Assembly (NCBI GenBank): GCA_024224995.1
Contig: JAAENB010001194.1
Location: forward strand, 1 to 30,783
Length of the DNA stretch: 30,783 bases
Direction: 5' to 3'
Origin: a bacterium
GTDB taxonomy: Bacteria > Spirochaetota > UBA4802 > UBA5550
Shown here: positions 6,374 through 26,199 of the stretch, piece after piece
Layout of the letters: each line of letters opens with the position of its first letter
Position numbering within the stretch: the stretch's first letter is position 1
Translations under genes and position numbers: made by a program
Notes under the pieces: generated by a model
Databases searched by the model: none
The model's input: only the letters and a program-made list of their open reading frames with translations
Told to the model about the DNA's origin: nothing

Positions 6374-7801
6374 ATGATTGGAAAAATAAAAATGTTTTCT
6401 ATTCTGGTTCTAATGGCTGTGTTTAGTCTGTCAATAATGGGCTGCGACATCTCATCGGCGTCGAGTTTAACGCTTACGGCGGATTATCTTGATGGCGGTA
6501 TCGACAACCAGGTTGTTGAATCCGGTTCTGTGCTGGATATGGAGGCATGTATACCGGGAAATGACCATATTATAGCATTTACTATGGGAAATGATGGTGA
6601 CGCGGCATTAGAGATTGAAAGTATCTCAATAAGCGGAGATCCAACACTGGATATGGATATCTATGAGCTTCCCAATCTGCCTGCGACTATCGAGGTTGGA
6701 GAAACCGCGCCTTTTTCTTTCTCCTTCGCGCCTGATGAGGAAAAAGAATACGAGGCAGTAATAACCATAGTAACCAATGATCCCGACAACGGAACGTTTA
6801 CGGTTGCTGTAAAAGGGGACAGCAGGCTGCCAAAGCCGAGCATGACTCTTATGGCGAATTACGCTCAAGGCGGTATTGAAAACCGGGTTTTCGAGAGTGA
6901 ATCGGTTCTGGACATGGGATTTTGCGCCCCCACTTATGATTACATTGCCGCGTTTACCATGAAAAACGATGGTCTTGCGGATTTGGTCATTGAGAGCATC
7001 TCAACAAGCGGAGATCCCACCAATGATATGTGTGCTTATGAGTATCCCAGCCTGCCTGTTACAATCGCGCCCGGAAGCAGTGTACCTTTTTCTTTTTCAT
7101 TCGCTCCCGATGAGGAAAAAGCCTATGAGGTTGTACTAAGCATTGTAAGCAATGATCCTGTAAATCCTACTACGTCAGTAACCATAAAAGGGGACAGCAG
7201 GGAACCCATTGGTACAACATTGGTTTTTATCACCGGAATGTGGACGATGGTAGATAGTATGGCGATAAATGTCTATAAAGACGGAGAGTTGATTGACCCG
7301 GTACCAGTTGGAACTCATGTGAAAAATTCAAAATACCTGGAGTTTTCAAATGTAGATTTTGGGGAATACCAGGTTGATGCAACAATAGTGTACCGGGATG
7401 GGCAGAGTTATCCTCAGAAGAAGTACCGGAAGACCGGTTCTTATACCTTCACAATGGATTTCTCTACACCTTTTGAGCAGTGGATGCCTTTTGCAACTTC
7501 GGAATACCTGACTACTTCGGCAAAGGTTCGTTTAACCGGAGATGGCGTGAATGACGTTGTAGGCGATACTCTGGAGCTGCTGGACGCGAGTAATCCCAGT
7601 TTTCTATATAAAAGCGGAACAGTCACAATGGGTGATGATGGAGTTCCTTATGTTTTATTAGAAGAACTTGATTCTATCTCCGGACGTTTTTTCCTTAATG
7701 TAACTAAAAATGGGTTCAACTATTACGGCTCAAAGGTTGTTGATATCGATTGTGAAGTGCCGCTGGAAGTGGATCTTTCAATTTCAAAGTCTCTGGATTA
7801 A
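6374..7801 (+). CDS. Lipoprotein with two tandem ~120-residue beta-sandwich repeats
   Basis: A 475-residue lipoprotein. I chose the ATG at 6374 because GGAGG stands nine bases before it and a proper signal peptide with lipobox SIMGC (Cys24) follows; an in-frame extension upstream to 6254 lacks both. Residues 32-151 and 157-276 are a tandem duplication sharing xLxANYxxGGIxN, AFTMxNDG, IESISxSGDP, PFSFSFAPDEEKxYE and VxxKGDSR. The pattern fits the ASPM/SPD-2/Hydin-like or choice-of-anchor-D type of immunoglobulin-like domain. The last ~200 residues hold further beta-rich sequence with no family I recognise. It is probably an exported, surface or periplasmic structural or binding protein. It stands alone, with repeat DNA upstream and a hairpin downstream. 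Confidence 0.8.
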   Translation: MIGKIKMFSILVLMAVFSLSIMGCDISSASSLTLTADYLDGGIDNQVVESGSVLDMEACIPGNDHIIAFTMGNDGDAALEIESISISGDPTLDMDIYELPNLPATIEVGETAPFSFSFAPDEEKEYEAVITIVTNDPDNGTFTVAVKGDSRLPKPSMTLMANYAQGGIENRVFESESVLDMGFCAPTYDYIAAFTMKNDGLADLVIESISTSGDPTNDMCAYEYPSLPVTIAPGSSVPFSFSFAPDEEKAYEVVLSIVSNDPVNPTTSVTIKGDSREPIGTTLVFITGMWTMVDSMAINVYKDGELIDPVPVGTHVKNSKYLEFSNVDFGEYQVDATIVYRDGQSYPQKKYRKTGSYTFTMDFSTPFEQWMPFATSEYLTTSAKVRLTGDGVNDVVGDTLELLDASNPSFLYKSGTVTMGDDGVPYVLLEELDSISGRFFLNVTKNGFNYYGSKVVDIDCEVPLEVDLSISKSLD

Positions 7802-7817
7802 TACTTATTATTTCAAC

Positions 7818-7845
7818 CAGGCCGCCTCTTCCGTGAGGCGGCCTG
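7818..7845 (+). terminator. Hairpin after the repeat lipoprotein gene
   Basis: CAGGCCGCCTC and GAGGCGGCCTG pair perfectly (11 bp) around the loop TTCCGT, 17 bases after the stop codon. There is no U-tract, so it is either a weak terminator or a transcript-stabilising hairpin. Confidence 0.55.
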
Positions 7846-7937
7846 TAGTACCCTTCATAAAAAAAGCTTGCTAATTTTTACAAACCGGCTACAGTTAAAC
7901 ATCTTCTTACATAATTTTACATAAAGGAAAAATAAAT

Positions 7938-8735
7938 ATGATCCTGGGAATTGATATCGGGAATACCAACACCGTATTGGGAATTTATTCCGAGGAAGCG
8001 GCAGTACCGGCACGGATATTCCGGTACCGGACGGAAAAGAATATCACCTCCGATGAGCTGGGATTGCTCATATTAAAATTTCTTGATTTTTTAAATGAAT
8101 CAAACTCCGAAGAGGGGATATCCGGCAAGGTACAGGGCATAGCCTTTTCCAGTGTGGTGCCGGAAGTAAACGGACGCTACGCGTCAATGGCACGGGACTT
8201 TTTTGGATTGGAATCACTTGAAATAAATTATAAGAACAAGCTCAGTATATCAATTCGTTACGATAACCCGGAGCAGCTGGGAGCCGACAGGATAGTAAAC
8301 GCCGAAGCAGCATACCGGGAACATGGAGGCGGAACCATAGTTGTAGATATCGGAACTGCTGCAACCTTTTGCCTGGTGCTGGAAGACGGTACCTTTGACG
8401 GCGGCCTCATCGCGCCGGGGATAGGAACCACGATCAAAGCCCTGGCAGCAAGCGCGTCCAGGCTGCCGCGTATAGACTTTGAAAAACCAAATCGCCTGGT
8501 AGCCAGGGACAGTGTAAACGCCATAAAATCGGGCTTTTTTTACGGCTGGTTATCCATGGTAGAAGGAATAATAAGCAAAATAGAACGGCAATACAATCAA
8601 GAATTCACCGTACTACTCACCGGCGGATTTTCTCAAATAATCGGGGAAAACATTGAAAGAAAAAATATCACCGATCCTGTCCTGACCATGAAAGGGATTA
8701 AATATATTCATGACATTAACCGCAGGAATGTATAA
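7938..8735 (+). CDS. coaX: Type III pantothenate kinase
   Basis: 265 residues. It phosphorylates pantothenate with ATP in the first step of coenzyme A synthesis, in the cytoplasm. The ASKHA-fold signatures are in order: DIGNTNT (residues 6-12, phosphate loop), PEQLGADRIVNA (111-122, the type III substrate motif with Asp117 and Arg118), VVDIGTAATF (135-144) and GGLIAPGI (155-162). The length is normal. The ATG follows AAAGGAAAAATAAAT. In many bacteria coaX sits beside birA or ftsH; here it is alone, between a lipoprotein gene and a gene-free repeat region. Confidence 0.96.
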   Translation: MILGIDIGNTNTVLGIYSEEAAVPARIFRYRTEKNITSDELGLLILKFLDFLNESNSEEGISGKVQGIAFSSVVPEVNGRYASMARDFFGLESLEINYKNKLSISIRYDNPEQLGADRIVNAEAAYREHGGGTIVVDIGTAATFCLVLEDGTFDGGLIAPGIGTTIKALAASASRLPRIDFEKPNRLVARDSVNAIKSGFFYGWLSMVEGIISKIERQYNQEFTVLLTGGFSQIIGENIERKNITDPVLTMKGIKYIHDINRRNV

Positions 8736-8841
8736 AACAAGCGTTCCGAATTTATTAATCACACTATATTTTCATATACATTTTTAAATTATTGCCTATA
8801 AATTTCAATGTTTTTTCCGGTATTTTCCAAAAATATTGGAG

Positions 8842-8883
8842 TTATCCACAAAGTTATTAACACTATCCACAAAATTATTCACC
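8842..8883 (+). promoter_or_regulatory. Tandem array of four DnaA-box-like 9-mers
   Basis: Four same-direction 9-mers start at 8842 (TTATCCACA, a perfect consensus box), 8854 (TTATTAACA), 8863 (CTATCCACA) and 8875 (TTATTCACC); each of the last three differs from TTATNCACA at one position. Starts are spaced 12, 9 and 12 bp. A further TTATCAACA lies on the minus strand at 9110-9118. The surroundings are very AT-rich and gene-free. This could be a replication-initiation or DnaA-binding region, but dnaA/dnaN are not nearby, so the role is open. Confidence 0.5.
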
Positions 8884-9032
8884 ATGTACATTAATTTACT
8901 AAATTTTTTTCATCGTATAACAGTCCGTTTGGTTGATCTTTTTGAAATATCACTCATGGAATGTGACATAAAATCTTAAATGCTGAATAGATCAGGAGAT
9001 AAAATGAATAATGACTCGGTATTTTCATAAAA

Positions 9033-9061
9033 AAAGAGATTTAATTATTAAAGAGATTTAA
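9033..9061 (+). repeat. AT-rich 12-mer direct repeat
   Basis: AAAGAGATTTAA occurs at 9033-9044 and again at 9050-9061, 17 bp apart, in an AT-rich stretch about 150 bp beyond the DnaA-box-like array. Repeated AT-rich 12- or 13-mers beside DnaA boxes are what a DNA-unwinding element looks like; here that is only suggestive. Confidence 0.4.
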
Positions 9062-9074
9062 AAAAGTCTTAAAT

Positions 9075-9094
9075 AACAGAAAGATCTTTCTGTT
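9075..9094. other. 20-bp perfect palindrome
   Basis: AACAGAAAGATCTTTCTGTT is its own reverse complement. It lies between the AT-rich direct repeats and the reverse-strand DnaA-box-like 9-mer at 9110, followed by TATCTTTTTGA. It could be a protein-binding site, or a terminator for coaX transcripts, though it is 340 bp beyond that gene. Confidence 0.45.
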
Positions 9095-9170
9095 TATCTT
9101 TTTGATTAATGTTGATAAGTTATGGAGAAGAGAAAATGAAGTGAAGAATGGGATAGAGTAAGGAGGGGAG

Positions 9171-9549
9171 GTGATTGGTGGCCCGGGTGGGCGGGTTATT
9201 CTTAACCGATCACCGGTTACCCGGCCCAAAGGGCCACTGATTACCTTCCCCCTGCCGGGTCAACACCACAGAGGGGGAATCCCAAATAAACACCGTGAGG
9301 GCACGGCACGCCGTGCCCCTACACGTACCGAATACCCTCGCAGGGGCCGCACTCCTTCCCGGAATCTCCATAGCCCTGGCCTGAAACCAGCCAGTAAAGG
9401 CGTTGCACTGCAACGTCTCTCAGAACCAAACCCCTCGCAGGGGTCGCACACCTTTTCCGGAGCATCTTCGGAAACAGACCCCGGTATCACCACAGTTTCT
9501 GACCTATTTTTTCCCGGCCATCCGGTGTCTGAGCGGAGCCGAAGACCCG
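9171..9549. repeat. Mosaic of dispersed repeat modules
   Basis: This non-coding block combines modules seen elsewhere in the window. GGTGATTGGTGGCCC at 9171-9185 pairs loosely with 9231-9245 and resembles 14811-14825. The stretch 9257-9297 matches the left edge of the window in inverted orientation. GGGCACGG-CACG-CCGTGCCC at 9299-9318 is a hairpin. 9398-9420 equals 79-101. 9464-9480 nearly equals 57-73. 9477-9549 is an inverted copy of repeat A. Open frames across it have no protein-like features and repeat across unrelated loci, so I annotate no gene here. Confidence 0.8.
9477..9549 (-). repeat. Dispersed repeat A, copy 2 (inverted)
   Basis: The reverse complement matches 1672-1744 at 72 of 73 positions. 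It ends 12 bases short of the stop codon of the propeller-like gene that converges on it from the right, so like copy 1 it abuts a gene's 3' end. Confidence 0.85.
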
Positions 9550-9561
9550 GGTCACCGTCCC

Positions 9562-10782
9562 CTACTCCCCAACAAGCTTCTTATAAACGCGAATCTTCTT
9601 CCTTATATACTCAGCGGAGTATTCATTATCCCAATAGGACTTATTACTAAGAAGTATTTCGTACAGGTTCAGGATCTTTTTGGAAGACCGTTTAATAGTG
9701 AGGCGGTTTTTCTTAATGGAGTCAATATCGGTAATAAAAAGCCGTTTAAACAGAAGGGAGGTAAATTTACTGCCGCCCGGGGAGAAGAGGATATCTTCTC
9801 CTTCAAGGCCTGTATTAAAAAGGCTCTCATTACGGATATCATAAACCTGGATAACCTGGTTGTTTAAAAAAGATATAAGTTGAGGATACCGGGAAAGCCG
9901 GATATTGGTATTTAAAGAATGGGAAAGCAGCTTTTTATCGGAGCCGGTTTTAGTATTAAACAGGTGAACGGAAAAATTCCCGGGATAGCCTTTTCTAAAG
10001 ACAAACTCATTATTGTTGATCCAATCAACCTCTTCAACAGAAGTAATACCGGAAACGAGGCTGCCCGAGTCACCAACAATAACCTTGGCTCTATAGGAAC
10101 CGCCGCTGCCGTGGACAATAAGCAATTTTGTTTTATTCGGGGAAAGCCAGGCAATAGCAGGGGAGCCGGAACCGTAAATGTCGGCATAAAATGACCGGTC
10201 TTTAACCAGGCGTTTTATTCCCGATTCAGGAAACAGCTCAACAATACCTTTTCCATTTTCAAAGAGAATAGAGTTCCCGCCGGGAGTAACGGAAAAATCG
10301 AGAAAGGGATAGGGGGTAGTGGAAAGCTTAAACGTACGGCTTCGGATATTTAACAGGATCGTTTCACCAACAGGATACCCGTCACTCTTTATAACCAACC
10401 GTTTGATAAAAACATATTTCCCATTAGGGCTAACCCGCACTGTGGTAATAGTACCACCCAGCCTGGTTACTTCCGACCGCCGTTTCCGGGACAGGTTGTA
10501 GGTATACACAACATTCGTGCCGGAGAATTCCTGAATATATACAACAGTATTTCTCTGAACCCACCCGGCAAAGATAACATTTTTGTCGATATACTGAGAA
10601 TTAATAGCATAATAAAGCCCGGTTTTCTTCCGCAAAAGCTGCTTATATAAAGAAGAATCCGTTTTAATATACATTTTATCCAGATCAATATCCCGCGCGT
10701 TTGCGGCAGAAAGGCCGCAAAAAAGCACGGTCAAAAGAAAGCAGGAAAGCCGCAGCTTATACTTCTTCAAAAACAACCTCAT
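9562..10782 (-). CDS. Secreted protein with beta-propeller-like (WD40/TolB-like) repeats
   Basis: 406 residues with a Sec signal peptide (about 1-29, ending ANA-RDI). The mature part is beta-rich with recurring phrases such as VSPNGKYVFIKR, VTPGGNSILFENGKG, WLSPNKTKLLIVHG and FSPGGSKFTSLLF, typical of blades in TolB/WD40-like propellers; at least four are visible. The last ~60 residues are Lys/Arg-rich helices. No enzyme motif is seen. The start lies 8 bases after the stop codon of the LysM lipoprotein gene without an obvious ribosome site, which suggests translational coupling. The two products may work together at the cell envelope. I recognise no specific family. Confidence 0.72.
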   Translation of the reverse strand: MRLFLKKYKLRLSCFLLTVLFCGLSAANARDIDLDKMYIKTDSSLYKQLLRKKTGLYYAINSQYIDKNVIFAGWVQRNTVVYIQEFSGTNVVYTYNLSRKRRSEVTRLGGTITTVRVSPNGKYVFIKRLVIKSDGYPVGETILLNIRSRTFKLSTTPYPFLDFSVTPGGNSILFENGKGIVELFPESGIKRLVKDRSFYADIYGSGSPAIAWLSPNKTKLLIVHGSGGSYRAKVIVGDSGSLVSGITSVEEVDWINNNEFVFRKGYPGNFSVHLFNTKTGSDKKLLSHSLNTNIRLSRYPQLISFLNNQVIQVYDIRNESLFNTGLEGEDILFSPGGSKFTSLLFKRLFITDIDSIKKNRLTIKRSSKKILNLYEILLSNKSYWDNEYSAEYIRKKIRVYKKLVGE

Positions 10783-10790
10783 AAAGAAGG

Positions 10791-12527
10791 CTATTCAGCT
10801 CCCGGAAAATTCAAGGCATCAACATCAACGGTGTCCTCTTCGATTATCTCTTCCGCATCAGGATCTTCCCCCGTATCTTTGTCACCGGAAGCATCCGAAT
10901 CATCACCACTACTCTCTTCAGCTGTGGAATCCGAAGCATCGGAACTGCTTTCATCACGGGTCGCGTCGGATGTTTTATCACCGGCAGCCTCATCAGGGGA
11001 GCCGGTCTCGTCAGAAGTTTTATCAGCACTTTCATCTGTTGTTTTATCAGTAGCTTCGCCTATGGTATCGGCGGCCTTTTCCGGAGGAGGTTCTTCGGAA
11101 AGGGGTTTCCTCTTTGGAATAGGAGGAATAACAAATTTTTGTCCCGGTAAAATAAGATCGGGATCTTTAATCTGGTCTTTATTCGCTACATAAATAAGAG
11201 GCCACAACCTGGCATCTTTATATACTTTTTTAGCAATACGCCAGAGACAGTCGGTATTTTTCTTCCGGTATCGAACAACATAAATATTTCCGTCTTTACC
11301 GGAAAGGCTGGTTTTTCCCGGAACGATCCCTCTTTTGGCGTATTCTTTATCAATAGAAGCGCTTAAAGCAGCAAGAAACTTTTCCGTTTCTTCAGCTTTG
11401 GCAATGGAATCATCGTACGCGCCCGCGTCTATCATACTTTTTCCATCACTGATCATATCAGCGGCTTCTTCCCTGTCCTCAAAAAATTTATCTTTAGTAT
11501 CCTTATCCCCTATAGCTTCATATTGTAATTCAACAGAAGCCATTATGTCCTCAGCAGCTTCTTTTTCAGCTGCTTTTTCAGCGCCTTTTTTGATCTTTTC
11601 ACGGGCAGCGGCAATAGCAGCTTCGGCGTCGGCGATCTTTGTTACGCCTCCGGAATGATTATTCTCTTTTAATAAGGTTTCGGCCTCATTCAGGCTGGAG
11701 GCAGCCACTTCCAGGTCTTCACCGGCAAATTCAGCGCCCCGGTCATTTTTCAAGGCCTCAATATCATTCCTGAGTTCTTCAACTCTTTTTTGAGCGGAAG
11801 CAACATCAATTTTGGTTTTGGCCAGAGCCAGCTTAGCTGAAGCTTCATCGATATTATTAAAAACCGGCTCCAGTTTCTCATTTGCCAGCTCCTCTTTAGC
11901 TGTAACAAGATGTTCGCCCGCGAGATCGAGCTCTTCTTTCGCTGTATCGCTCGATTCAAGGGCTTCGAGTTCGGCCTTTTCACCTTCCAGCCGTTTAATG
12001 TCGGCAGCTAAACGGGGAATATTTTCTTTCGAAACCCGGACCGCTTCTTTTGCCAGGGGAATAGCTTCTCTTGATTTAAGGTATGAATCCCAGAATTTTG
12101 TTTCTTCGTTAAGACTTTCAGCTTCTTTTATGAGTGCTCCGGCTTTTGCAAAATCATCGGGAGCCAGTTTTTTCGCGTAAAGTTCATCCGCGTCATCATA
12201 TATCTCTTTTGCTTCTTTCAGAGTATCCCGTGCCAGCAGCGGGAGTGATGTTGTAATAGCGGCATTGGCAGCATCAAGAGACTTTTGAGCTTCTTCAGCG
12301 GCTTTTTTCTCTTCTTCGGCCTTTAAAAAGTCATGAGTTTTATAGAGATGCTTGAGGGATTTATCAAGGTTTGCTTTGTCGTATTTATCGGCCTTAACCT
12401 GCTCAGCTCGTTCAATAGCGTATCGTGCTTTTACCATGACCCTTAAAGGAACATCCAGCTGGCATGAGACAAGGAGTGCCAGGGATACGGCAAAAAGAGT
12501 TATTATTGGAATCCTGGTTCTTTTCAT
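10791..12527 (-). CDS. Alanine-rich coiled-coil lipoprotein with LysM domain
   Basis: 578 residues. The signal peptide ends in the lipobox LLVSC (Cys22). Residues about 30-395 are a long Ala/Glu/Lys-rich helical region of repeats (AKEAVRVSKEN, AEAAIAAAREKIKK) like the DUF4398-type helical lipoproteins of spirochaetes. A LysM domain follows at about 415-469 (VVRYRKKNTDCLWRIAKKVY ... LILPGQKFVIPP), which binds peptidoglycan. The last ~100 residues are acidic and Ser/Thr/Asp-rich. The protein probably tethers an outer or inner membrane lipid anchor to the cell wall. The ribosome site GAGGCG precedes the ATG. It is the first gene of a two-gene unit with the propeller-like protein. Confidence 0.87.
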   Translation of the reverse strand: MKRTRIPIITLFAVSLALLVSCQLDVPLRVMVKARYAIERAEQVKADKYDKANLDKSLKHLYKTHDFLKAEEEKKAAEEAQKSLDAANAAITTSLPLLARDTLKEAKEIYDDADELYAKKLAPDDFAKAGALIKEAESLNEETKFWDSYLKSREAIPLAKEAVRVSKENIPRLAADIKRLEGEKAELEALESSDTAKEELDLAGEHLVTAKEELANEKLEPVFNNIDEASAKLALAKTKIDVASAQKRVEELRNDIEALKNDRGAEFAGEDLEVAASSLNEAETLLKENNHSGGVTKIADAEAAIAAAREKIKKGAEKAAEKEAAEDIMASVELQYEAIGDKDTKDKFFEDREEAADMISDGKSMIDAGAYDDSIAKAEETEKFLAALSASIDKEYAKRGIVPGKTSLSGKDGNIYVVRYRKKNTDCLWRIAKKVYKDARLWPLIYVANKDQIKDPDLILPGQKFVIPPIPKRKPLSEEPPPEKAADTIGEATDKTTDESADKTSDETGSPDEAAGDKTSDATRDESSSDASDSTAEESSGDDSDASGDKDTGEDPDAEEIIEEDTVDVDALNFPGAE

Positions 12528-12588
12528 TTTAGCGCCTCTAAATAATGTATGATATATATATATATATACCTATCGGGAATTATATAGT

Positions 12589-12617
12589 ATTAGATACATA
12601 CAGATTTGTAATGTCAA
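12589..12617 (-). promoter_or_regulatory. Sigma70-like promoter for the LysM lipoprotein unit
   Basis: On the minus strand TTGACA (12617-12612) and TCTAAT (12594-12589) are separated by 17 bp. It lies about 60 bases upstream of the LysM lipoprotein start, and a 16-base TA dinucleotide run sits in the leader near 12555-12568. The -35 is perfect; the -10 is a fair match. Confidence 0.5.
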
Positions 12618-12633
12618 TACAAAAAAAATGTTC

Positions 12634-13350
12634 TTAATACAATCTTCCCAGAATAGCGGGCAGCGCGGTTTCCACCCGCAATATTCTCTCTCCAACAGAT
12701 ACGGCTTCAAACCCCTGTTTTTCGAGCATTTCAATCTCATAGGGAATGAAACCGCCTTCCGGGCCCACAGCCAGGGTTACGGGTTCATTAATAAAACGAG
12801 GGCATTCCTTTTCAGATCCGGGATGGGCAACCAGGGCTCTGGTTCCATTAATTATTCCCGGCAATTCATCTTCGGCAAAGGGTTTAAACAATTTCCGGAT
12901 CTCAATCAAGGGTAAAACCGTATCCCGGGCCTGTTCCAGACCAAGGACCATTTCATGAAACAGGTTTTCTTCCTTTAGAACGGGGCTTTCCCAGAAGCTC
13001 TTCTCTACACGCCAGGTCTTAATAATATAAATACGCTTAACTCCAAGGGTTGTGCAATGCTGTATGATCCTTTTCAGCGCTTTGGGCCTTGGCATGGCCA
13101 GTATGATAGTTGCAGGCAAGGGGTCCGGCGGATCTCCTGAGAAATCCACGTCCATTTCAATCGATTCCGCGCTTATGGACCGGATTAACCCATTGCCGGT
13201 TTTCCCATTCAAGAGCCCAACCCGCAAACTATCCCCTTCCACAGCCTTATGGACCGATAAAATATGCTCCAGCCGCCTCCCTTCCAAAACAACCCTTCTT
13301 TTACCGGGATCACCAACAAAATCTTCTTCAAACAACAAAACCAGGTTCAT
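12634..13350 (-). CDS. rsmE: 16S rRNA (uracil1498-N3)-methyltransferase
   Basis: 238 residues. It methylates U1498 of 16S rRNA in the assembled 30S subunit, using S-adenosylmethionine. The SPOUT-fold signatures are clear: an N-terminal PUA-like part (RLEHILSVHKAVEGD), AMPRPKALKRIIQHCTTLGV (86-104), VAVGPEGGF (194-201) and the knot-forming end VGERILRVETALPAIL (219-234). The length is normal. It is read in the same direction as the LysM gene but ends 107 bp before it, with a promoter between them, so it is probably a separate unit. Confidence 0.95.
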   Translation of the reverse strand: MNLVLLFEEDFVGDPGKRRVVLEGRRLEHILSVHKAVEGDSLRVGLLNGKTGNGLIRSISAESIEMDVDFSGDPPDPLPATIILAMPRPKALKRIIQHCTTLGVKRIYIIKTWRVEKSFWESPVLKEENLFHEMVLGLEQARDTVLPLIEIRKLFKPFAEDELPGIINGTRALVAHPGSEKECPRFINEPVTLAVGPEGGFIPYEIEMLEKQGFEAVSVGERILRVETALPAILGRLY

Positions 13351-20049: not shown

Positions 20050-21027
20050 ATGGGAATTAAATCATTTTTCCGGAAAAAAAAGGGCACAGACACTGACCTT
20101 AAAGACGTTTTCGATCTTGACGATAAATTTATGCTCTTCCTTAAAGACAGGATTGGAAAATTTACCAAAGATGATTTAAAAGATCCGTACTGGTTCCGTA
20201 ACATTAAAGAGCTAAAAACACTGGACGGATACAAAACAAAGACGAAAGAAGAAAAAGTCGATAAGCATATAAAAAAGCATGCCATTGAGCAGCGTGGAGA
20301 ACTATATCCTGCCGCTTTTGACTGGCGTTCAGCCGGGGAATCGGGCAAAAATTATATCAACAAAAAAGTAAAATGGCAGGGCTTATGTTCTTCCTGTGTT
20401 GCCTTTGCTGCGGCAGGAGCACTGGAAGCCGGTGCCCGGATAAAAAAAGACATTCCTGTTGATAGCCCTTCAGCCGGAACCCTCCCCTCCCTGTCGGAGG
20501 CGCAGCTTTTCTTTTGCAGTCCCGGGGAAAAAGCTTCAACAGGGTGGTATCCTTCTGAGGCATTACAATTTTGTAAAGGAACAGGAGTGGCCCCGGAGAG
20601 TTATTTTCCCTGGAAATACCAGCCGCCCTGGGATTACGAAAAACAAAAGTGTGATATCACTCAGGGATGGCAGGACAAAGTAACAAAGATCTCAGCCTTC
20701 CATGAAATATCAAACCCTGTAGAAATGAAGAAATGGCTCTCTACCCGGGGACCGCTCATTACGGGAATGAGCCTTTACCTGGACCTGCTTTTTTACAAAG
20801 ACGGGGTATATAAAAAATCTACCGACTTCCGGAATACTAAAATTGGCGGCCATTGTATTCTCTGCATTGGGTATAATGATGAAAAACAGGCATGGTTATG
20901 CAAAAACAGCTGGACCGAAGACTGGGGAATGGACGGATATTTCTGGGCCGGGTATGGTCAATGCGGCATAGGGCAAACCATGATGGCAATTGACGATTTT
21001 TCGGAAATTTACCAGGAGACCTTATAA
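20050..21027 (+). CDS. Papain-family (C1A) cysteine protease without signal peptide
   Basis: 325 residues. An N-terminal charged stretch (1-80) precedes the protease domain. Catalytic residues are visible: Gln110 (oxyanion hole), Cys116 in QGLCSSCVAF, His268 in IGGHCILCIGY and Asn286 in KNSWTEDWG. The residue after the catalytic Cys is Val instead of the usual Trp. AAFDWRSAGE (88-97) is the start of the mature-like domain seen in other bacterial C1A enzymes. There is no signal peptide, so it is probably cytoplasmic, unlike most papains; the N-terminal part may be a propeptide. It overlaps by 6 bp at its 3' end with the convergent radical SAM gene. A role in cutting the nearby RiPP precursor is possible but unsupported. 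Confidence 0.85.
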   Translation: MGIKSFFRKKKGTDTDLKDVFDLDDKFMLFLKDRIGKFTKDDLKDPYWFRNIKELKTLDGYKTKTKEEKVDKHIKKHAIEQRGELYPAAFDWRSAGESGKNYINKKVKWQGLCSSCVAFAAAGALEAGARIKKDIPVDSPSAGTLPSLSEAQLFFCSPGEKASTGWYPSEALQFCKGTGVAPESYFPWKYQPPWDYEKQKCDITQGWQDKVTKISAFHEISNPVEMKKWLSTRGPLITGMSLYLDLLFYKDGVYKKSTDFRNTKIGGHCILCIGYNDEKQAWLCKNSWTEDWGMDGYFWAGYGQCGIGQTMMAIDDFSEIYQETL

Positions 21028-23004
21028 AAAAATACTACTAAATTGATCTTTGATAAATTTAGCTTGATATTCAGTAAGAAACAAACCATAGGAAGCCAAT
21101 AAATTCACCGTATCCCGTTTTAAGTCACTAAACAGGCCGGGATTACTATTTAGATCTTCCATAAATTGTTCAACCTGGAATGCTGTTTTACTATTTGTTT
21201 TTTCCGGTTCCGGGCCATTTTCGTTTGCGAGCTTTGTTTCTCTAATGGATTCAACCAACAGGTTTACAAAGCTATCTTCAATTTCAAGAATAAATCCCGA
21301 ATTCAGTAACATATCGAATTTCTTTTGCAAATCGTTTGAGGAAAGAAATGAACGAACTTTTATTTTTGATGCCGGGACAAACAAAAAATCCAGTACGGCA
21401 AAGTCCTGTTCATCCAATACCGAAAATGTTTTCTTACCAACATCACGAGTATCAATTACCAGGTAATATTCACTGGTTAACCTTGCAAGCTGTAAAATTG
21501 ATTTAATTTTTGCGGATGCCCCACTCCAGTCACCTAATAAAGAGAAAAATTTTTCTTTAAGATCTTCGTTACAAAAAGCGGTAGAATAAGTCCCTTCAAA
21601 ATATATTGATATCTTATCAAAGTTGGTAATAGCGGGAAACATATGATAATAGAACTCCAGGGGCTGCAATTTTTCTATATTAAAATCTTTATACGAATCA
21701 AAAAGAGGGCTGTACCGTTGAATAACGACAGGATTGATCTTAGATGGAGGTGTTAGATGAGTAATATACGGCAGAAAGGACAGGATTTCCAAATAGTCCT
21801 CTTCTTTTTCACCGGGAATATCATACAAAAAACTCCAGGCCGGAAAAATTTTTAATGATTTGCAGTCCCTGAGAAAGCGAACATTACCGGCAGCAGTTGT
21901 TCCTTTCCGGAGAATGCCAAGTAGACGGTTGTTAAATGTTTCAATACCGGGCTGGCATAATGTTAAACGATTGCGTTTTAGATCATACAACTCTTCAAAG
22001 GGTATTGTTGGCCGCAATTCATAATACATTTCTTTAATGGAATCACTACCCGGATCTATCAATTGCCGGGGTCTGTTTTTAGGGATAATATTATCGGTAG
22101 GATAAAATGTACTTACTGAATATTTTTCAACAAGCTCATTAATTTCTTTAGCAATTCTTTCCGGAGATTTTTGCCGGTGGCAAATAGAAAGTCCATTGCC
22201 GCCACAAAATACACAATGCGTCTTTTCTCCCCACCAGCAGCCTCTTCCGCTTTCAAAGGGCATACGGACTTTTTTCCTGAAATGAGCAAATTGCATTTCT
22301 TTAAAATAATCGGTGTAATCCGGGTACGGTAAAGAGTCAAGATCCAGTACCGGCTCGCAATTTATTATTCTATTCTGAGGGAACACATTGTGTAAGGCAT
22401 TCTCGCAAAAGGCCGTAAATTTAAATTCGGCATCCCCGGAAAAAATATAATCTATAGAATTCGTTATTTCCAGAATCGCGCTACCCATTGGTTCCTGGCA
22501 GTTATATCCCCCCATAACAGTAATAATCCGGGGATTATTATTTTTCAGCACCCGCGCGGCAGCGATGGATGCCATTACCTGGTTATTGCTCGATTGAAAA
22601 CCTACTATTTTTGGATCTTTTTTAAGGATAGATTCCACGATCTGCTCTATGGAATTTCCGGCTTCCTTGCGCAAGCCTGTCAGCTCTTCCATTACAACAT
22701 AATCTCCCGGGTACGATGTTTTGAATTTATAATCCCGGTATTTTTTTTCGAACAGTTCCAGTGTTTTTCTTCCGGCGGGGAAAGCTTCCGAGGAAAAAAC
22801 ATATTCGCTCAACAAATAACTACTATATGCCACAGCAATTTTATCATATAAAAAATGAGATATATCATTCTTATATAACAGGTTCGCGTAAAAAACCTCT
22901 GAATCAATATCCCGATCACGTAAAACCGATTTTAGCAGGCTTGGACCAATGGATGGAGACACGTCCGAAGTAAAAGGAAGCACAACCAGAACAACATCAC
23001 TCAT
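21022..23004 (-). CDS. B12-binding radical SAM RiPP maturase (second in operon)
   Basis: 660 residues. An N-terminal cobalamin-binding-type Rossmann region (1-205; TVMGGYNCQEPMG at about 162-174, then IDYIFSGDAEFKF) precedes a radical SAM domain with Cys256-x7-Cys264-x2-Cys267 (RGCWWGEKTHCVFCGGNG) that ligates the 4Fe-4S cluster. CQPGIETFNNRLL and AWSFLYDIPGEKEEDYLE are further hallmarks of the peptide-maturation radical SAM family known as rSAM_ocin_1 (TIGR03975). Family members act on ribosomally made precursors, often methylating unactivated carbons. The start overlaps the upstream stop by four bases (ATGA), so it is translationally coupled. It is about 40% AT-richer-looking than the amylase gene upstream in the window. 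Which residue it modifies is unknown. Confidence 0.88.
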   Translation of the reverse strand: MSDVVLVVLPFTSDVSPSIGPSLLKSVLRDRDIDSEVFYANLLYKNDISHFLYDKIAVAYSSYLLSEYVFSSEAFPAGRKTLELFEKKYRDYKFKTSYPGDYVVMEELTGLRKEAGNSIEQIVESILKKDPKIVGFQSSNNQVMASIAAARVLKNNNPRIITVMGGYNCQEPMGSAILEITNSIDYIFSGDAEFKFTAFCENALHNVFPQNRIINCEPVLDLDSLPYPDYTDYFKEMQFAHFRKKVRMPFESGRGCWWGEKTHCVFCGGNGLSICHRQKSPERIAKEINELVEKYSVSTFYPTDNIIPKNRPRQLIDPGSDSIKEMYYELRPTIPFEELYDLKRNRLTLCQPGIETFNNRLLGILRKGTTAAGNVRFLRDCKSLKIFPAWSFLYDIPGEKEEDYLEILSFLPYITHLTPPSKINPVVIQRYSPLFDSYKDFNIEKLQPLEFYYHMFPAITNFDKISIYFEGTYSTAFCNEDLKEKFFSLLGDWSGASAKIKSILQLARLTSEYYLVIDTRDVGKKTFSVLDEQDFAVLDFLFVPASKIKVRSFLSSNDLQKKFDMLLNSGFILEIEDSFVNLLVESIRETKLANENGPEPEKTNSKTAFQVEQFMEDLNSNPGLFSDLKRDTVNLLASYGLFLTEYQAKFIKDQFSSIFL

Positions 23005-24044
23005 GTGGAATATCCCGCGACGGGCATATTAAAAAAACCAAAATAGGCTTTCACTTCAAGCGGCTCTTCCGGACGGTAAACAGCTTTTAAATAATACAAA
23101 TACCGATAGGTATAATAATTATCAAACTCAGGAATATGCTTTTCTCTTGAAACTCTTTTCCAATTAATAAAAGAATCACATTTATCTTTCAGCGCCAGAT
23201 TATTCTCAACAAGATATTCAAAAATAGGGGTCCATTTATCCTGATTTGTAAAGGGTTTATCGAAATGCAATTCAATTCCTATTTTGGGCTCAATCCCCTC
23301 GCCAATATCCAGGTGAAGCCTGACTGAATCAAATTTACCGGTTAATTCTTCTACGGTCTCTTTCAGAACTTCAGCAGCCTGTCCAAGTCCAATGGCCCCC
23401 AGGTATTCATACATCTCCTGTTCAGAGAGATCAATTAAACATAACCGCACCAGGTTTTTGTTCCGCGTTGGCATATATCCGAAATAATTAATTTTTACCG
23501 TATTGAACAATTTGGCAAAACAGAATTCAATAGTATCGAATATTTCTTGTTTCATGGTATTGCCGCTTAATATCGACAATAATTTGAAGATCCGGTTATA
23601 ATTGGGCTTTTTTTCCAGGTACATTTCATCAGTAAAATGAACAAAAAACAGCGGTTCCGGTATGGAAGGCATATTTTTTGTTATATCAAATTCAAACCAG
23701 GTATAATCAACATACCTGTCGGCTTCCGAATTTTTTATGGCCCATTCCGTAAAAAATTGCCGTATCGCGTTCCAAACCGGAATTTCAAACAGCTGTCTAA
23801 AACCTTCAGGGGGATTTCCGGAACCATGAAGAATTCTATCCCTCATGTTCCGTTCCACTGTAAAGGCAAAATCGGTCACCGGTTCGGGTACATTTAATTT
23901 TGATTCAAAAATATACCGTGGACCTATATCCGGGACAAAATTCTTTGAAATATCATAAATAGATTCCAGCCATGCTTTTGAAAGAACCTGTTCCGGAACA
24001 TAACCGGATAAATCTCTTATAACATTTTCTAAAGTACGATGCAA
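23001..24044 (-). CDS. Unrecognised protein of the RiPP operon, TTG start
   Basis: 347 residues. I place the start at TTG 24044-24042 because AAGGAG stands six bases before it, just after the stop of the radical SAM gene; an ATG 21 codons upstream would overlap that gene without a ribosome site. The product is soluble, with no signal peptide or membrane segment. Features that stand out are WFEFD (116-120) with PSIPEPLFFVHF (126-137), VRLHLDIG (241-248) with KIGIELHFDKPF (254-265), and a Tyr-rich YYTYRYLYYLKAVYRP (310-325) with EVKAYFGF (330-337). The repeated alternation of beta strands is compatible with an alpha/beta sandwich, for example an ABBA-type prenyltransferase, but no catalytic motif proves it. 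It could be a third tailoring enzyme or a precursor-binding partner. It lies between the two radical SAM genes. Confidence 0.7.
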   Translation of the reverse strand: MHRTLENVIRDLSGYVPEQVLSKAWLESIYDISKNFVPDIGPRYIFESKLNVPEPVTDFAFTVERNMRDRILHGSGNPPEGFRQLFEIPVWNAIRQFFTEWAIKNSEADRYVDYTWFEFDITKNMPSIPEPLFFVHFTDEMYLEKKPNYNRIFKLLSILSGNTMKQEIFDTIEFCFAKLFNTVKINYFGYMPTRNKNLVRLCLIDLSEQEMYEYLGAIGLGQAAEVLKETVEELTGKFDSVRLHLDIGEGIEPKIGIELHFDKPFTNQDKWTPIFEYLVENNLALKDKCDSFINWKRVSREKHIPEFDNYYTYRYLYYLKAVYRPEEPLEVKAYFGFFNMPVAGYST

Positions 24045-24054
24045 TTGGAACTCC

Positions 24055-25836
24055 TTATAACAGCTCTGTTGTTTTGTCAACAACCAGTGAAAGATAACAA
24101 TAATCAATTTTGATAATGAAATTATTAGTTAACAATTCCGTGAATACTTGTTCACATAACAGCTCCCCGACGAATTTCTGTACATCGGCTTCCGGTACGG
24201 GAAGCCGAAGAAAATTCAAAATTTCATATTGATCCTTGCTCACCGGTACCTGCTTAACAACAGAGCTCTCCCTGCTGTCAATAATCAAGTACTGCCGGTC
24301 ATCTTCTTTACCGGGAATAATTTTTAATTCAGGTATCGCATTTCGATCTTTCCATAAATTCTGCCATTTCTCTATTGCTTCAAAAAAATCTTTTTCCAGC
24401 TCTCTGTTTTCAAATGCTTTTTTGTACTCTCCTATAAAAAAGAGGGCTAATTTACCTATATCCGCCTCATCGGGGAATATATAGTAATACGCCTCCGGAG
24501 GCCGAAGATTTTTTATATTATACTTTTGATACTGTTCATACAATGGACTGAATCTCTGTATAATAAGAGCTCTTATTTTCGCGGGAGGTTTAAAGTGATG
24601 CAAAAAAGGAATAAAATTAATCATATCAACATATTCATTTTCTTTTTCTCCGGGGATACCAAATAAAAAATTCCAATATGGTTCAATTCCTATTGTTCTA
24701 CAATCCCGTAAAAACCTGATATTATTGGGAGCACTTGTTAATTTTCCTAATATTTTCAAATGAGCGGTACTAAAAGACTCAATCCCCGGCTGACAGGAAT
24801 TAACCCCTTTATCCTTTAATATCGACAATTGGCTTAAATTTAATTGAGGACTTATTTCATAAAAAAAATTTTTTAGCTTTTTTGTCTTTTCTAAATGCTG
24901 AAAAACAGTTCCGGGGAATTCCATAGGCATAATCGGATCAACGGCAAAAATGTATTCCGGATTATATTTTTTTATCAAATAATTAATTTCAGACAACGCT
25001 TTTTCCGGACTCTTCCTGCGGTAGTGGATATATTCTTCTTTGTGACCACAGAATAGACAGTGAGATTTATATCCCTGCCAGCAGCCGCGGCTTCCTTCAA
25101 AGCAAATGCTTTTATTAAAAAACCATAATTTGTCCGATTGATCCAGGTAATCGGAAAAATCAGGAGCGGGAAACTGATTTATATCGCTAACCGGGGGGCA
25201 CTGGATAATTTCATGAGGATACCGTGCCTTCAATTCACCGGCACCTTCCAGCCGGGTTTTACAAAAGCTGACAATTTTTTCTTCCGGTTCCCCGGAAAAT
25301 ATATAATCAATCGCGGGGGCAATCCTCAGCAATTCATCCCCCATGGGAAATAAACAGCTATGCCCGCTAACAACAACAGTACTTTCGGGAGAAGACTCTT
25401 TAACCGCATTAGAAATACAAATAGATGCTGTCACCTGTTTCACAAAGGAATTAATCCAAATAATTTTGGGAGACTTCTTTACGATAATGTCCTTTAGTGT
25501 TTCAAGGTAATTCCCTAACTGGTCTCTTGTTTCATTAATTTTTTCATACAACGCTTTATTGTTCCTTTTTAAAATGGAATCATATTCAGCATGTTTGTCG
25601 TATAAAACAGGAAAAGCATGAGAAGCAAAAATGTACTCTACTAATTCATAATGGTTATATAAAAATGACAATTCTTCATAAAAACGGATGTCGATTTTCT
25701 TTTTTAAGAGTAAATTGGCGTATAATATCTCCGAATTAATATTTTCATTTTTAAGAATGGATTTCAGAGTACTTAATACAATAGAAGGCATACCTCCCGT
25801 GAAAAAGGGAGGTAAAATAAATAATATTTCCGGCAT
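24055..25836 (-). CDS. B12-binding radical SAM RiPP maturase (first in operon)
   Basis: 593 residues, a diverged paralogue of the 660-residue enzyme. The N-terminal cobalamin-type region has SGHSCLFPMGDELL (157-170) and IDYIFSGEPEEK (176-187). The radical SAM cluster is Cys252-x7-Cys260-x2-Cys263 (RGCWQGYKSHCLFCG). SCQPGIESFSTAHLKIL and YWNFLFGIPGEKENEYVD match the rSAM_ocin_1 (TIGR03975) pattern. It starts 18 bases after the precursor stop codon without a clear ribosome site, pointing to coupling with precursor translation. Two related but non-identical maturases in one operon suggest two different modifications, or a division of labour along a very short core. The DNA is visibly AT-rich. 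Confidence 0.9.
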   Translation of the reverse strand: MPEILFILPPFFTGGMPSIVLSTLKSILKNENINSEILYANLLLKKKIDIRFYEELSFLYNHYELVEYIFASHAFPVLYDKHAEYDSILKRNNKALYEKINETRDQLGNYLETLKDIIVKKSPKIIWINSFVKQVTASICISNAVKESSPESTVVVSGHSCLFPMGDELLRIAPAIDYIFSGEPEEKIVSFCKTRLEGAGELKARYPHEIIQCPPVSDINQFPAPDFSDYLDQSDKLWFFNKSICFEGSRGCWQGYKSHCLFCGHKEEYIHYRRKSPEKALSEINYLIKKYNPEYIFAVDPIMPMEFPGTVFQHLEKTKKLKNFFYEISPQLNLSQLSILKDKGVNSCQPGIESFSTAHLKILGKLTSAPNNIRFLRDCRTIGIEPYWNFLFGIPGEKENEYVDMINFIPFLHHFKPPAKIRALIIQRFSPLYEQYQKYNIKNLRPPEAYYYIFPDEADIGKLALFFIGEYKKAFENRELEKDFFEAIEKWQNLWKDRNAIPELKIIPGKEDDRQYLIIDSRESSVVKQVPVSKDQYEILNFLRLPVPEADVQKFVGELLCEQVFTELLTNNFIIKIDYCYLSLVVDKTTELL

Positions 25837-25854
25837 ATTTTACTGTAAACAATA

Positions 25855-26082
25855 CTACCAGCAGCCATACGGCTCTTTGTCCGGTCCCGGAGGCAATACA
25901 ACATTTATAGTGTTAGCATTATCTTCATGTACATTAACACTCATATCCCCCGGAATAGATAAATTGTATTTATCTTGAAGAACCGCTTTAGGATTTGCCA
26001 TAAAACTTGATCTTAAATCCTGATCATTTGCCAGATCATCAATAATTTTTTTTTCTAAATGGCGAAGAAACGTAATACTCAT
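25855..26082 (-). CDS. RiPP precursor peptide with NHLP-type leader
   Basis: 75 residues. I start at ATG 26082 because GAGAGG stands seven bases before it; an in-frame ATG 24 codons upstream has no such site, and its extension lies over the palindrome. The leader has the pattern of nitrile-hydratase-like leader peptides (NHLP): a helical start (FLRHLEKKIIDDLANDQDLRS), FMANPKAVLQDKYNLSIPG (28-45), VNVHEDNANTINVVLPP (49-65). After LPP only ten residues remain: GPDKEPYGCW, ending in Cys74-Trp75. That tail is the presumed core modified by the two radical SAM enzymes encoded directly downstream. There is no GG/GA cleavage motif at the leader end. Small size and its place as first gene, with the strongest ribosome site, fit a precursor made in excess. 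Confidence 0.85.
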   Translation of the reverse strand: MSITFLRHLEKKIIDDLANDQDLRSSFMANPKAVLQDKYNLSIPGDMSVNVHEDNANTINVVLPPGPDKEPYGCW

Positions 26083-26126
26083 AATTAGACCTCTCAATTT
26101 ATTAAATTTCCAGGAGGAATTCTCCC

Positions 26127-26144
26127 ATAAAAGTGCACTTTTAT
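26127..26144. promoter_or_regulatory. 18-bp perfect palindrome in the RiPP operon leader
   Basis: ATAAAAGTGCACTTTTAT is its own reverse complement. It lies about 20-40 bases inside the predicted transcript and 45 bases before the precursor start. It is suited to dimeric regulator binding, or to a hairpin in the leader RNA. Confidence 0.55.
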
Positions 26145-26171
26145 TTAATAGCACAAAAGAAATATTTAAAT

Positions 26172-26199
26172 ATTATAGCCTAAATATATTCAAAGTCAA
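26172..26199 (-). promoter_or_regulatory. Sigma70-like promoter of the RiPP operon
   Basis: On the minus strand TTGACT (26199-26194), a 16-bp spacer and a perfect TATAAT (26177-26172). Transcription would start near 26165, giving a leader of about 80 bases before the precursor ATG. It is among the best promoter matches in the window. Confidence 0.65.

Follow-up and report, generated by a model that had tools for sequence, protein, structure and literature searches.

We analysed a stretch of 30,783 nucleotides from a spirochaete (the window; contig JAAENB010001194.1 of assembly GCA_024224995.1), which harbors on its minus strand an operon of four genes (21022-26082) coding, in order, for a short precursor-like peptide, a cobalamin (B12)/radical S-adenosylmethionine (SAM) enzyme (rSAM1), a protein of 347 residues and a second enzyme of the first kind (rSAM2). 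Successive genes are separated by gaps of 18 nt and 10 nt and then share a 4-nt ATGA overlap, the layout already described in an earlier reading made without any database search (the sequence-only reading). Three intact long open reading frames, with a curated-model match or a clear fold and at operon spacing, are no chance pattern. The strong promoter claimed by that reading corresponds to a sigma-70-like site, TTGACT-N16-TATAAT (26172..26199, minus strand), identified by consensus match alone; it agrees with the consensus at 11 of 12 positions but should be called suggestive rather than strong, since a scan returned 29 such sites versus 19.6 (sd 4.3) in shuffled sequences.

Precursor and radical SAM enzymes

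The precursor (75 aa; 25855..26082, minus strand; ending GPDKEPYGCW) had been taken for an NHLP-leader peptide of that length. It does match the NHLP leader model TIGR03793 (E 4.2e-12), with residues 8-70 aligned to model positions 4-65 of 77 and the C-terminal part of the model (positions 66-77) unmatched, but its 45.7 bits do not reach the curated cut-off of 50.9, and the match to PF02979 (E 5.7e-4) is likewise below that model's cut-off. Leaders of NHLP precursors typically end in a C-terminal GG cleavage motif, and GG occurs nowhere in this sequence. Since the TIGR03793 cut-off is missed and GG is absent, we refer to the precursor as NHLP-like rather than NHLP. The leader ends in VVLPP, after which GPDKEPYGCW alone remains; given this end, the extent of the NHLP match and the precedent of PalX as described in PMC10853753, the last ten residues (25858..25887, minus strand) are the proposed core. 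The candidate prenyl acceptors are Tyr72 (25867-25869) and the C-terminal Trp75 (25858-25860), both on the minus strand, with Cys74 between them. A search for precursor homologues, which relies on shared 5-residue words, returned the window's own protein alone.

Both radical SAM enzymes belong to TIGR03975 (rSAM_ocin_1), as had been predicted: rSAM1 (593 aa; 24055..25836, minus strand) scores 444.1 bits over model positions 1-606 of 606 and rSAM2 (660 aa; 21022..23004, minus strand) 447.6 bits over positions 1-605, versus a curated cut-off of 281.85. The C-x7-C-x2-C three-cysteine [4Fe-4S] motif, also foreseen, can be read in both translations (RGCWQGYKSHCLFC and RGCWWGEKTHCVFC). There is in addition a Pfam Radical_SAM match in rSAM1, and the cobalamin-binding model PF02310 matches rSAM2 weakly (24.8 bits; cut-off 32.1) and rSAM1 not at all at E<=1. 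By sequence, the PDB gave no usable match for either. The two enzymes share 36% identity and, in a tree built from 18 TIGR03975 proteins, are each other's sisters with support 100/100, so that a duplication is the probable origin of the pair.

The 347-residue protein and its relatives

The 347-residue protein (23001..24044, minus strand) starts at a TTG following TAAGGAG; an alternative longer frame of 368 aa overlaps rSAM1. It was an unknown in the sequence-only reading, and it need not stay anonymous: its predicted structure matches ABBA barrels, with the alpha-beta-beta-alpha barrel running over the chain, and by this predicted fold it looks like an ABBA/prenyltransferase (PT)-barrel prenyltransferase, presumably acting on a peptide, rather than a nameless accessory protein. 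Moreover, its family is recurrent beside TIGR03975, NHLP or Nif11 genes, as the following loci illustrate.

In a tblastn search of 72,556 plasmids, the 347-residue protein matched three records at E<=1e-3, each of them cyanobacterial, and a profile of 32 family members recovered these three with E values of 3e-49 at worst. All three homologues are surrounded by genes for ribosomally synthesized and post-translationally modified peptides (RiPPs). On plasmid pn1 of Nostoc sp. UHCC 0926 (8589-13098), two NHLP precursors (100.9 and 96.6 bits) are followed by a PoyD-type epimerase (573 bits), a third, stop-bearing NHLP frame and the homologue (11947-13098); these are all the NHLP matches on the 1.04-Mb record, each at most 5 kb from the homologue. 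A LanM-like protein, recognized by eye, and Nif11 peptides lie farther out. The record itself carries a single annotated feature. On pPg_03 of Pseudanabaena galeata, the homologue makes up the N-terminal portion of a 597-aa protein (9983-11776) that bears the annotation 2OG-Fe(II) oxygenase and is neighboured by an annotated LanM and a Nif11 precursor (43.7 bits) with IPPIKW at the end of its core. On pMB07 of Acaryochloris sp. 'Moss Beach' (7070-11371), TIGR03975, a short peptide annotated as Nif11-like with Tyr-Trp near its end (KKKKRYWH) and the homologue stand in a row, as in the window; unlike in the window, the TIGR03975 gene is broken by stops, the homologue is in pieces, no NCBIfam leader model matches the peptide at E<=1e-3 and there is an extra SAM methyltransferase. 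The locus has the look of a decayed relative of the window operon. The homologous clusters with a conserved precursor asked for earlier are thus half in evidence: there are related clusters, but their precursors differ in type and no homologue of the precursor of the window itself was found.

Seen from TIGR03975, the association is not the rule. A TIGR03975-like match at E<=1e-20 is present in 57 plasmid records. In the five whose gene neighbourhoods were inspected, no prenyltransferase is annotated within 4 kb of it, and none of these five is one of the three homologue records. Ruegeria sp. B32 carries on a plasmid a TIGR03975 gene adjoining an NHLP-clan precursor (an Os1348 NHLP-clan protein), as in the window, but there is a single enzyme, the annotation shows no prenyltransferase within 4 kb, and the record lacks a homologue of the 347-residue protein at E<=1e-3. 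On an S. clavuligerus plasmid, at a locus that we take to be the clavusporin cluster, a DUF5825 accessory protein adjoins TIGR03975. Phage records contained no homologue of the 347-residue protein, and none of 74 pattern matches in viral contigs was confirmed.

The family extends to archaea. A scan of GTDB contigs, which used two peptide patterns and from which a restriction to archaea should not be read, gave ten loci, every one of them under the title Euryarchaeota, Thermoplasmata/Thermoplasmatota or uncultured archaeon, and no cyanobacterial one. In a survey of 389 genomes of one archaeal phylum (that of genome G007, taken for Thermoplasmatota, and holding the genomes of all ten loci), the homologue is present in 15, TIGR03975 above cut-off in 30 and both in 12, where the enzymes score 339-368 bits. 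TIGR03975 accordingly occurs in 12 of the 15 genomes with the homologue versus 18 of the 374 without it (Fisher p 1.6e-12, uncorrected for kinship), and in six of the 15 the two genes are close on one contig (L002, L006, L007, L010, L051, L052). In its fullest form the cluster has an Lrp-like regulator and TIGR03975, then the homologue in one or two copies, then an acyl-ACP (acyl carrier protein)-reductase-like protein and a geranylgeranyl-reductase-family protein. The last two follow the homologue in L002 (7915-9998), L007 (12689-14757), L051 (9104-11193) and L052 (6187-8261), and their presence suggests reduction of a prenyl chain. Model scores in L002 are low: the acyl-ACP-reductase-like protein reaches 68 bits with TIGR04058 and 85 bits with the PigE model, both far under cut-off, and the geranylgeranyl-reductase-family protein 134 bits with TIGR02032 (cut-off 158.8). 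In the TIGR03975 tree, the window pair groups with bacterial enzymes and with that of one archaeal locus, L054, while the remaining archaeal enzymes, whether adjoining a homologue or from loci without one, form a separate clade; joint inheritance of the window and archaeal rSAM-prenyltransferase pairs was considered, and for the rSAM it finds no support in the tree.

A short peptide with the motif C-x3-C-E-K may be a RiPP precursor in the archaeal loci. Its frame lies directly before the homologue (L001 11295, L003 2501, L004 3202, L005 8403, L006 9565, L007 11291, all plus strand) or is fused to the N-terminus of the homologue (L002 6563, L052 4861, L053 1204), that is, in 9 of 15 homologue loci; L008 and L010 have variants of the motif, L009 has undetermined bases at the site and in L069 the upstream side ends with the contig. 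Of the 15 loci without homologue, 4 also have the motif in the vicinity of TIGR03975 (L062 10093; L065 5099, minus strand; L066 9375; L067 5057, minus strand), where it adjoins a 200-aa protein that by eye looks membrane-bound; in L065 there is no in-frame start codon upstream. Since a looser pattern, C-x3-C-[ED]-[KR], occurs seven further times elsewhere in these 30 loci, the argument for the peptide is carried by its position and by further likeness.

Proposed pathway and alternative explanations

In our judgement the window operon probably encodes an NHLP-guided RiPP pathway in which modification by two TIGR03975 enzymes is combined with prenylation of an aromatic core residue and a short lipidated core is set free; what the enzymes do, which residue accepts the prenyl group, which molecule donates it, in what order the steps run and where cleavage takes place are all inferred. 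The leader would recruit both TIGR03975 enzymes and the PT-barrel prenyltransferase. The former would act on the short C-terminal core at unactivated carbons, with C-methylation most likely and a crosslink possible, and the latter would take an isoprenyl group from a prenyl diphosphate and attach it to an aromatic residue, most likely Trp75 or else Tyr72. A peptidase, which may lie outside the operon, would then release the product. Trp75 is favoured because of PalX/PalQ and MppC (see below) and because the Pseudanabaena precursor ends in Trp. The doubly modified RiPP product proposed by the sequence-only reading is consistent with the operon and its RiPP logic but appears incomplete, as the predicted PT-barrel fold and the recurrent linkage to RiPP genes make it likelier that the product is prenylated as well as radically modified. 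The product is probably a peptide that carries both radical modifications and a lipid tag, a kind for which there is no description so far.

A number of observations weigh against this reading. At the sequence level the 347-residue protein matches no known prenyltransferase model of Pfam or NCBIfam at E<=1, no known prenyltransferase family is among the 14 Pfam families matched by any of the 32 family members, and in the PDB its best match has E 1.7, which is unusable, the family profile giving no usable match either; the assigned function therefore rests on fold and context. The protein shares only 23-30% identity with its relatives and its branch is very long, at 4.2 changes per site, so that its chemistry may have changed. 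Since the precursor is a singleton, the acceptor residue cannot be read from conservation, and in the two intact Nostoc precursors, upstream of the enzyme, the part following GG contains Tyr and lacks Trp, so Trp is not universal. TIGR03975 is found in one of the three cyanobacterial records and is broken there. As for the archaea, the 15 homologue genomes include the ten that served to find the family, and among the other five TIGR03975 is present in three; nine of the 15 lack the two genes together, which includes different contigs in six (G001, G003, G004, G005, G009, G189) and no TIGR03975 above cut-off in three (G008, G165, G180), and in two of the six, at L001 and L005, at least 7 kb upstream of the homologue are free of a TIGR03975 enzyme. 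At E<=1e-3, no NHLP or Nif11 leader is found in any of the 15 genomes, with an NHLP model that does match in the Nostoc record, which means that the archaeal partners work with a different precursor or without one.

It could be that the 347-residue protein is not a peptide prenyltransferase but a diverged partner, either leader-binding or an activating subunit of the radical SAM enzymes, the product then being modified by radical SAM chemistry only, as the sequence-only reading supposed. The long branch and the missing prenyltransferase matches would fit this, as would the DUF5825 protein beside TIGR03975 in S. clavuligerus, since a B12-rSAM/DUF5825 pair is described as C-methylating in clavusporin biosynthesis (PMC12257519). 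We regard such a role as unlikely, however, because polar and basic residues of the barrel strands are conserved across the window, cyanobacterial and archaeal-type members, because the fold relatives listed for the model are enzymes, and because the geranylgeranyl-reductase homologue adjoining family members in several archaeal loci fits isoprenoid chemistry. An even more improbable explanation is that the prenyltransferase targets a small molecule or another protein and shares the operon to serve a separate, though linked, purpose. Most of the listed ABBA fold matches act, judging by titles, on free amino acids, diketopiperazines or other small aromatics, and the archaeal reductase-like neighbours could make up a lipid pathway; yet the gene sits at operon spacing between two RiPP maturases, the window operon includes no small-molecule gene, and RiPP genes surround the homologue on all three cyanobacterial plasmids.

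A different question is what the TIGR03975 enzymes do. Methylation and crosslinking are both possible, given the precedents of ApyD, which C-beta-methylates Tyr in aminopyruvatide as described in PMC11117315, and PbsB, a B12-rSAM enzyme described as forming a C-C biaryl crosslink rather than methylating (PMC12257519). The latter also counts against methylation as proposed above, and the PYGCW end of the core would supply Tyr, Cys and Trp for such a linkage. That the enzymes make a crosslink or an epimer, with the prenyltransferase working as proposed, seems to us a less probable variant, since NCBI names the TIGR03975 family C-methyltransferase, and the enzyme on the S. clavuligerus plasmid lies beside DUF5825, a type of pair reported to methylate. 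Returning to prenylation, a broader and more tentative proposal is that the 347-residue family comprises undescribed, leader-guided ABBA peptide prenyltransferases of both domains tied to TIGR03975, which in bacteria would lipidate NHLP/Nif11 RiPPs at a terminal aromatic residue and in archaea, with the geranylgeranyl-reductase homologue and the C-x3-C-E-K peptide, would yield RiPPs whose prenyl chain is then saturated to an archaeal lipid-like tail.

Known systems and flanking features

The combination is surprising, but each part has precedent in the published descriptions. In PalX/PalQ of Paenibacillus alvei (PMC10853753), an NHLP-type precursor with a short core and a conserved C-terminal Trp (DNVRRFFW) is prenylated, much as proposed here; the section on it makes no mention of double-glycine cleavage, the three-gene cluster as described has no radical SAM enzyme whereas the window has two, and PalQ, by its description, is of an isoprene-synthase-fold type, the model of the 347-residue protein matching ABBA barrels. 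MppC, from the mpp lanthipeptide cluster, is an ABBA enzyme that geranylates Trp under guidance of a Nif11-like leader (PMC12715784), and NctPC is described as an ABBA peptide prenyltransferase of a leader-guided RiPP cluster that also acts on Trp (PMC13290415); their contexts are LanM lanthionine chemistry and a fused terpene-cyclase domain, respectively, rather than two B12-rSAM enzymes. MppC and NctP were set beside the 347-residue protein by their published descriptions; should they prove homologous, the bacterial part of the family would be a new member of theirs with new partners. ApyD resembles the window enzymes in being a B12-rSAM acting on Tyr near the C-terminus of a RiPP precursor, but its partners are a P450 and an MNIO (PMC11117315), and its model matches rSAM2 weakly (45.5 bits against 750) and does not list rSAM1 at E<=1.

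TIGR03975 enzymes, ABBA peptide prenyltransferases of leader-guided RiPP clusters and terminal-Trp NHLP prenylation are already known. Searches of the open-licence PMC literature found nothing for prenyltransferase with RiPP, radical SAM and ABBA, nor for radical SAM C-methyltransferase with prenyltransferase and precursor peptide, and, by titles and abstract openings, no ABBA prenyltransferase from archaea; within what these searches returned there was neither an operon uniting all three elements nor an unannotated prenyltransferase-fold family spanning bacteria and archaea. If the proposal holds, the operon unites carbon-centred radical modification and prenylation on one leader-guided peptide and assigns a likely role to a family that goes unrecognized by the tested Pfam and NCBIfam models, and prenylated ribosomal peptides become possible in archaea, with a geranylgeranyl reductase acting on the peptide-bound chain.

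Convergent with the operon is a plus-strand gene (20050..21027) for a papain-family (C1) peptidase (PF00112, E 6.8e-36), which overlaps the end of the rSAM2 gene by 6 nt and shows no signal peptide by eye. That it is the leader peptidase of the operon is possible but unproven; C1 homologues are close to TIGR03975 in 4 of 26 archaeal loci (L002, L006, L055, L061), a linkage too weak, with unequal flanks, to keep it as part of the system. PADLOC returned no match for this peptidase or the four operon proteins. The rSAM2 protein has a C-terminal extension of about 70 residues (21025..21237, minus strand) with no counterpart in rSAM1 and no family match. By eye it is leader-like, but an NHLP/LigA-type helix bundle was unsupported by any model, and a RiPP recognition element in the C-termini of both enzymes was also discarded, NCBIfam giving TIGR03975 itself alone and Pfam nothing of note. 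Finally, in L054 (3166-5594; genome G176, of the same archaeal phylum), a 553-bit TIGR03975 enzyme precedes a 116-aa protein that is NHLP-like by eye but for which NCBIfam gives no leader match.

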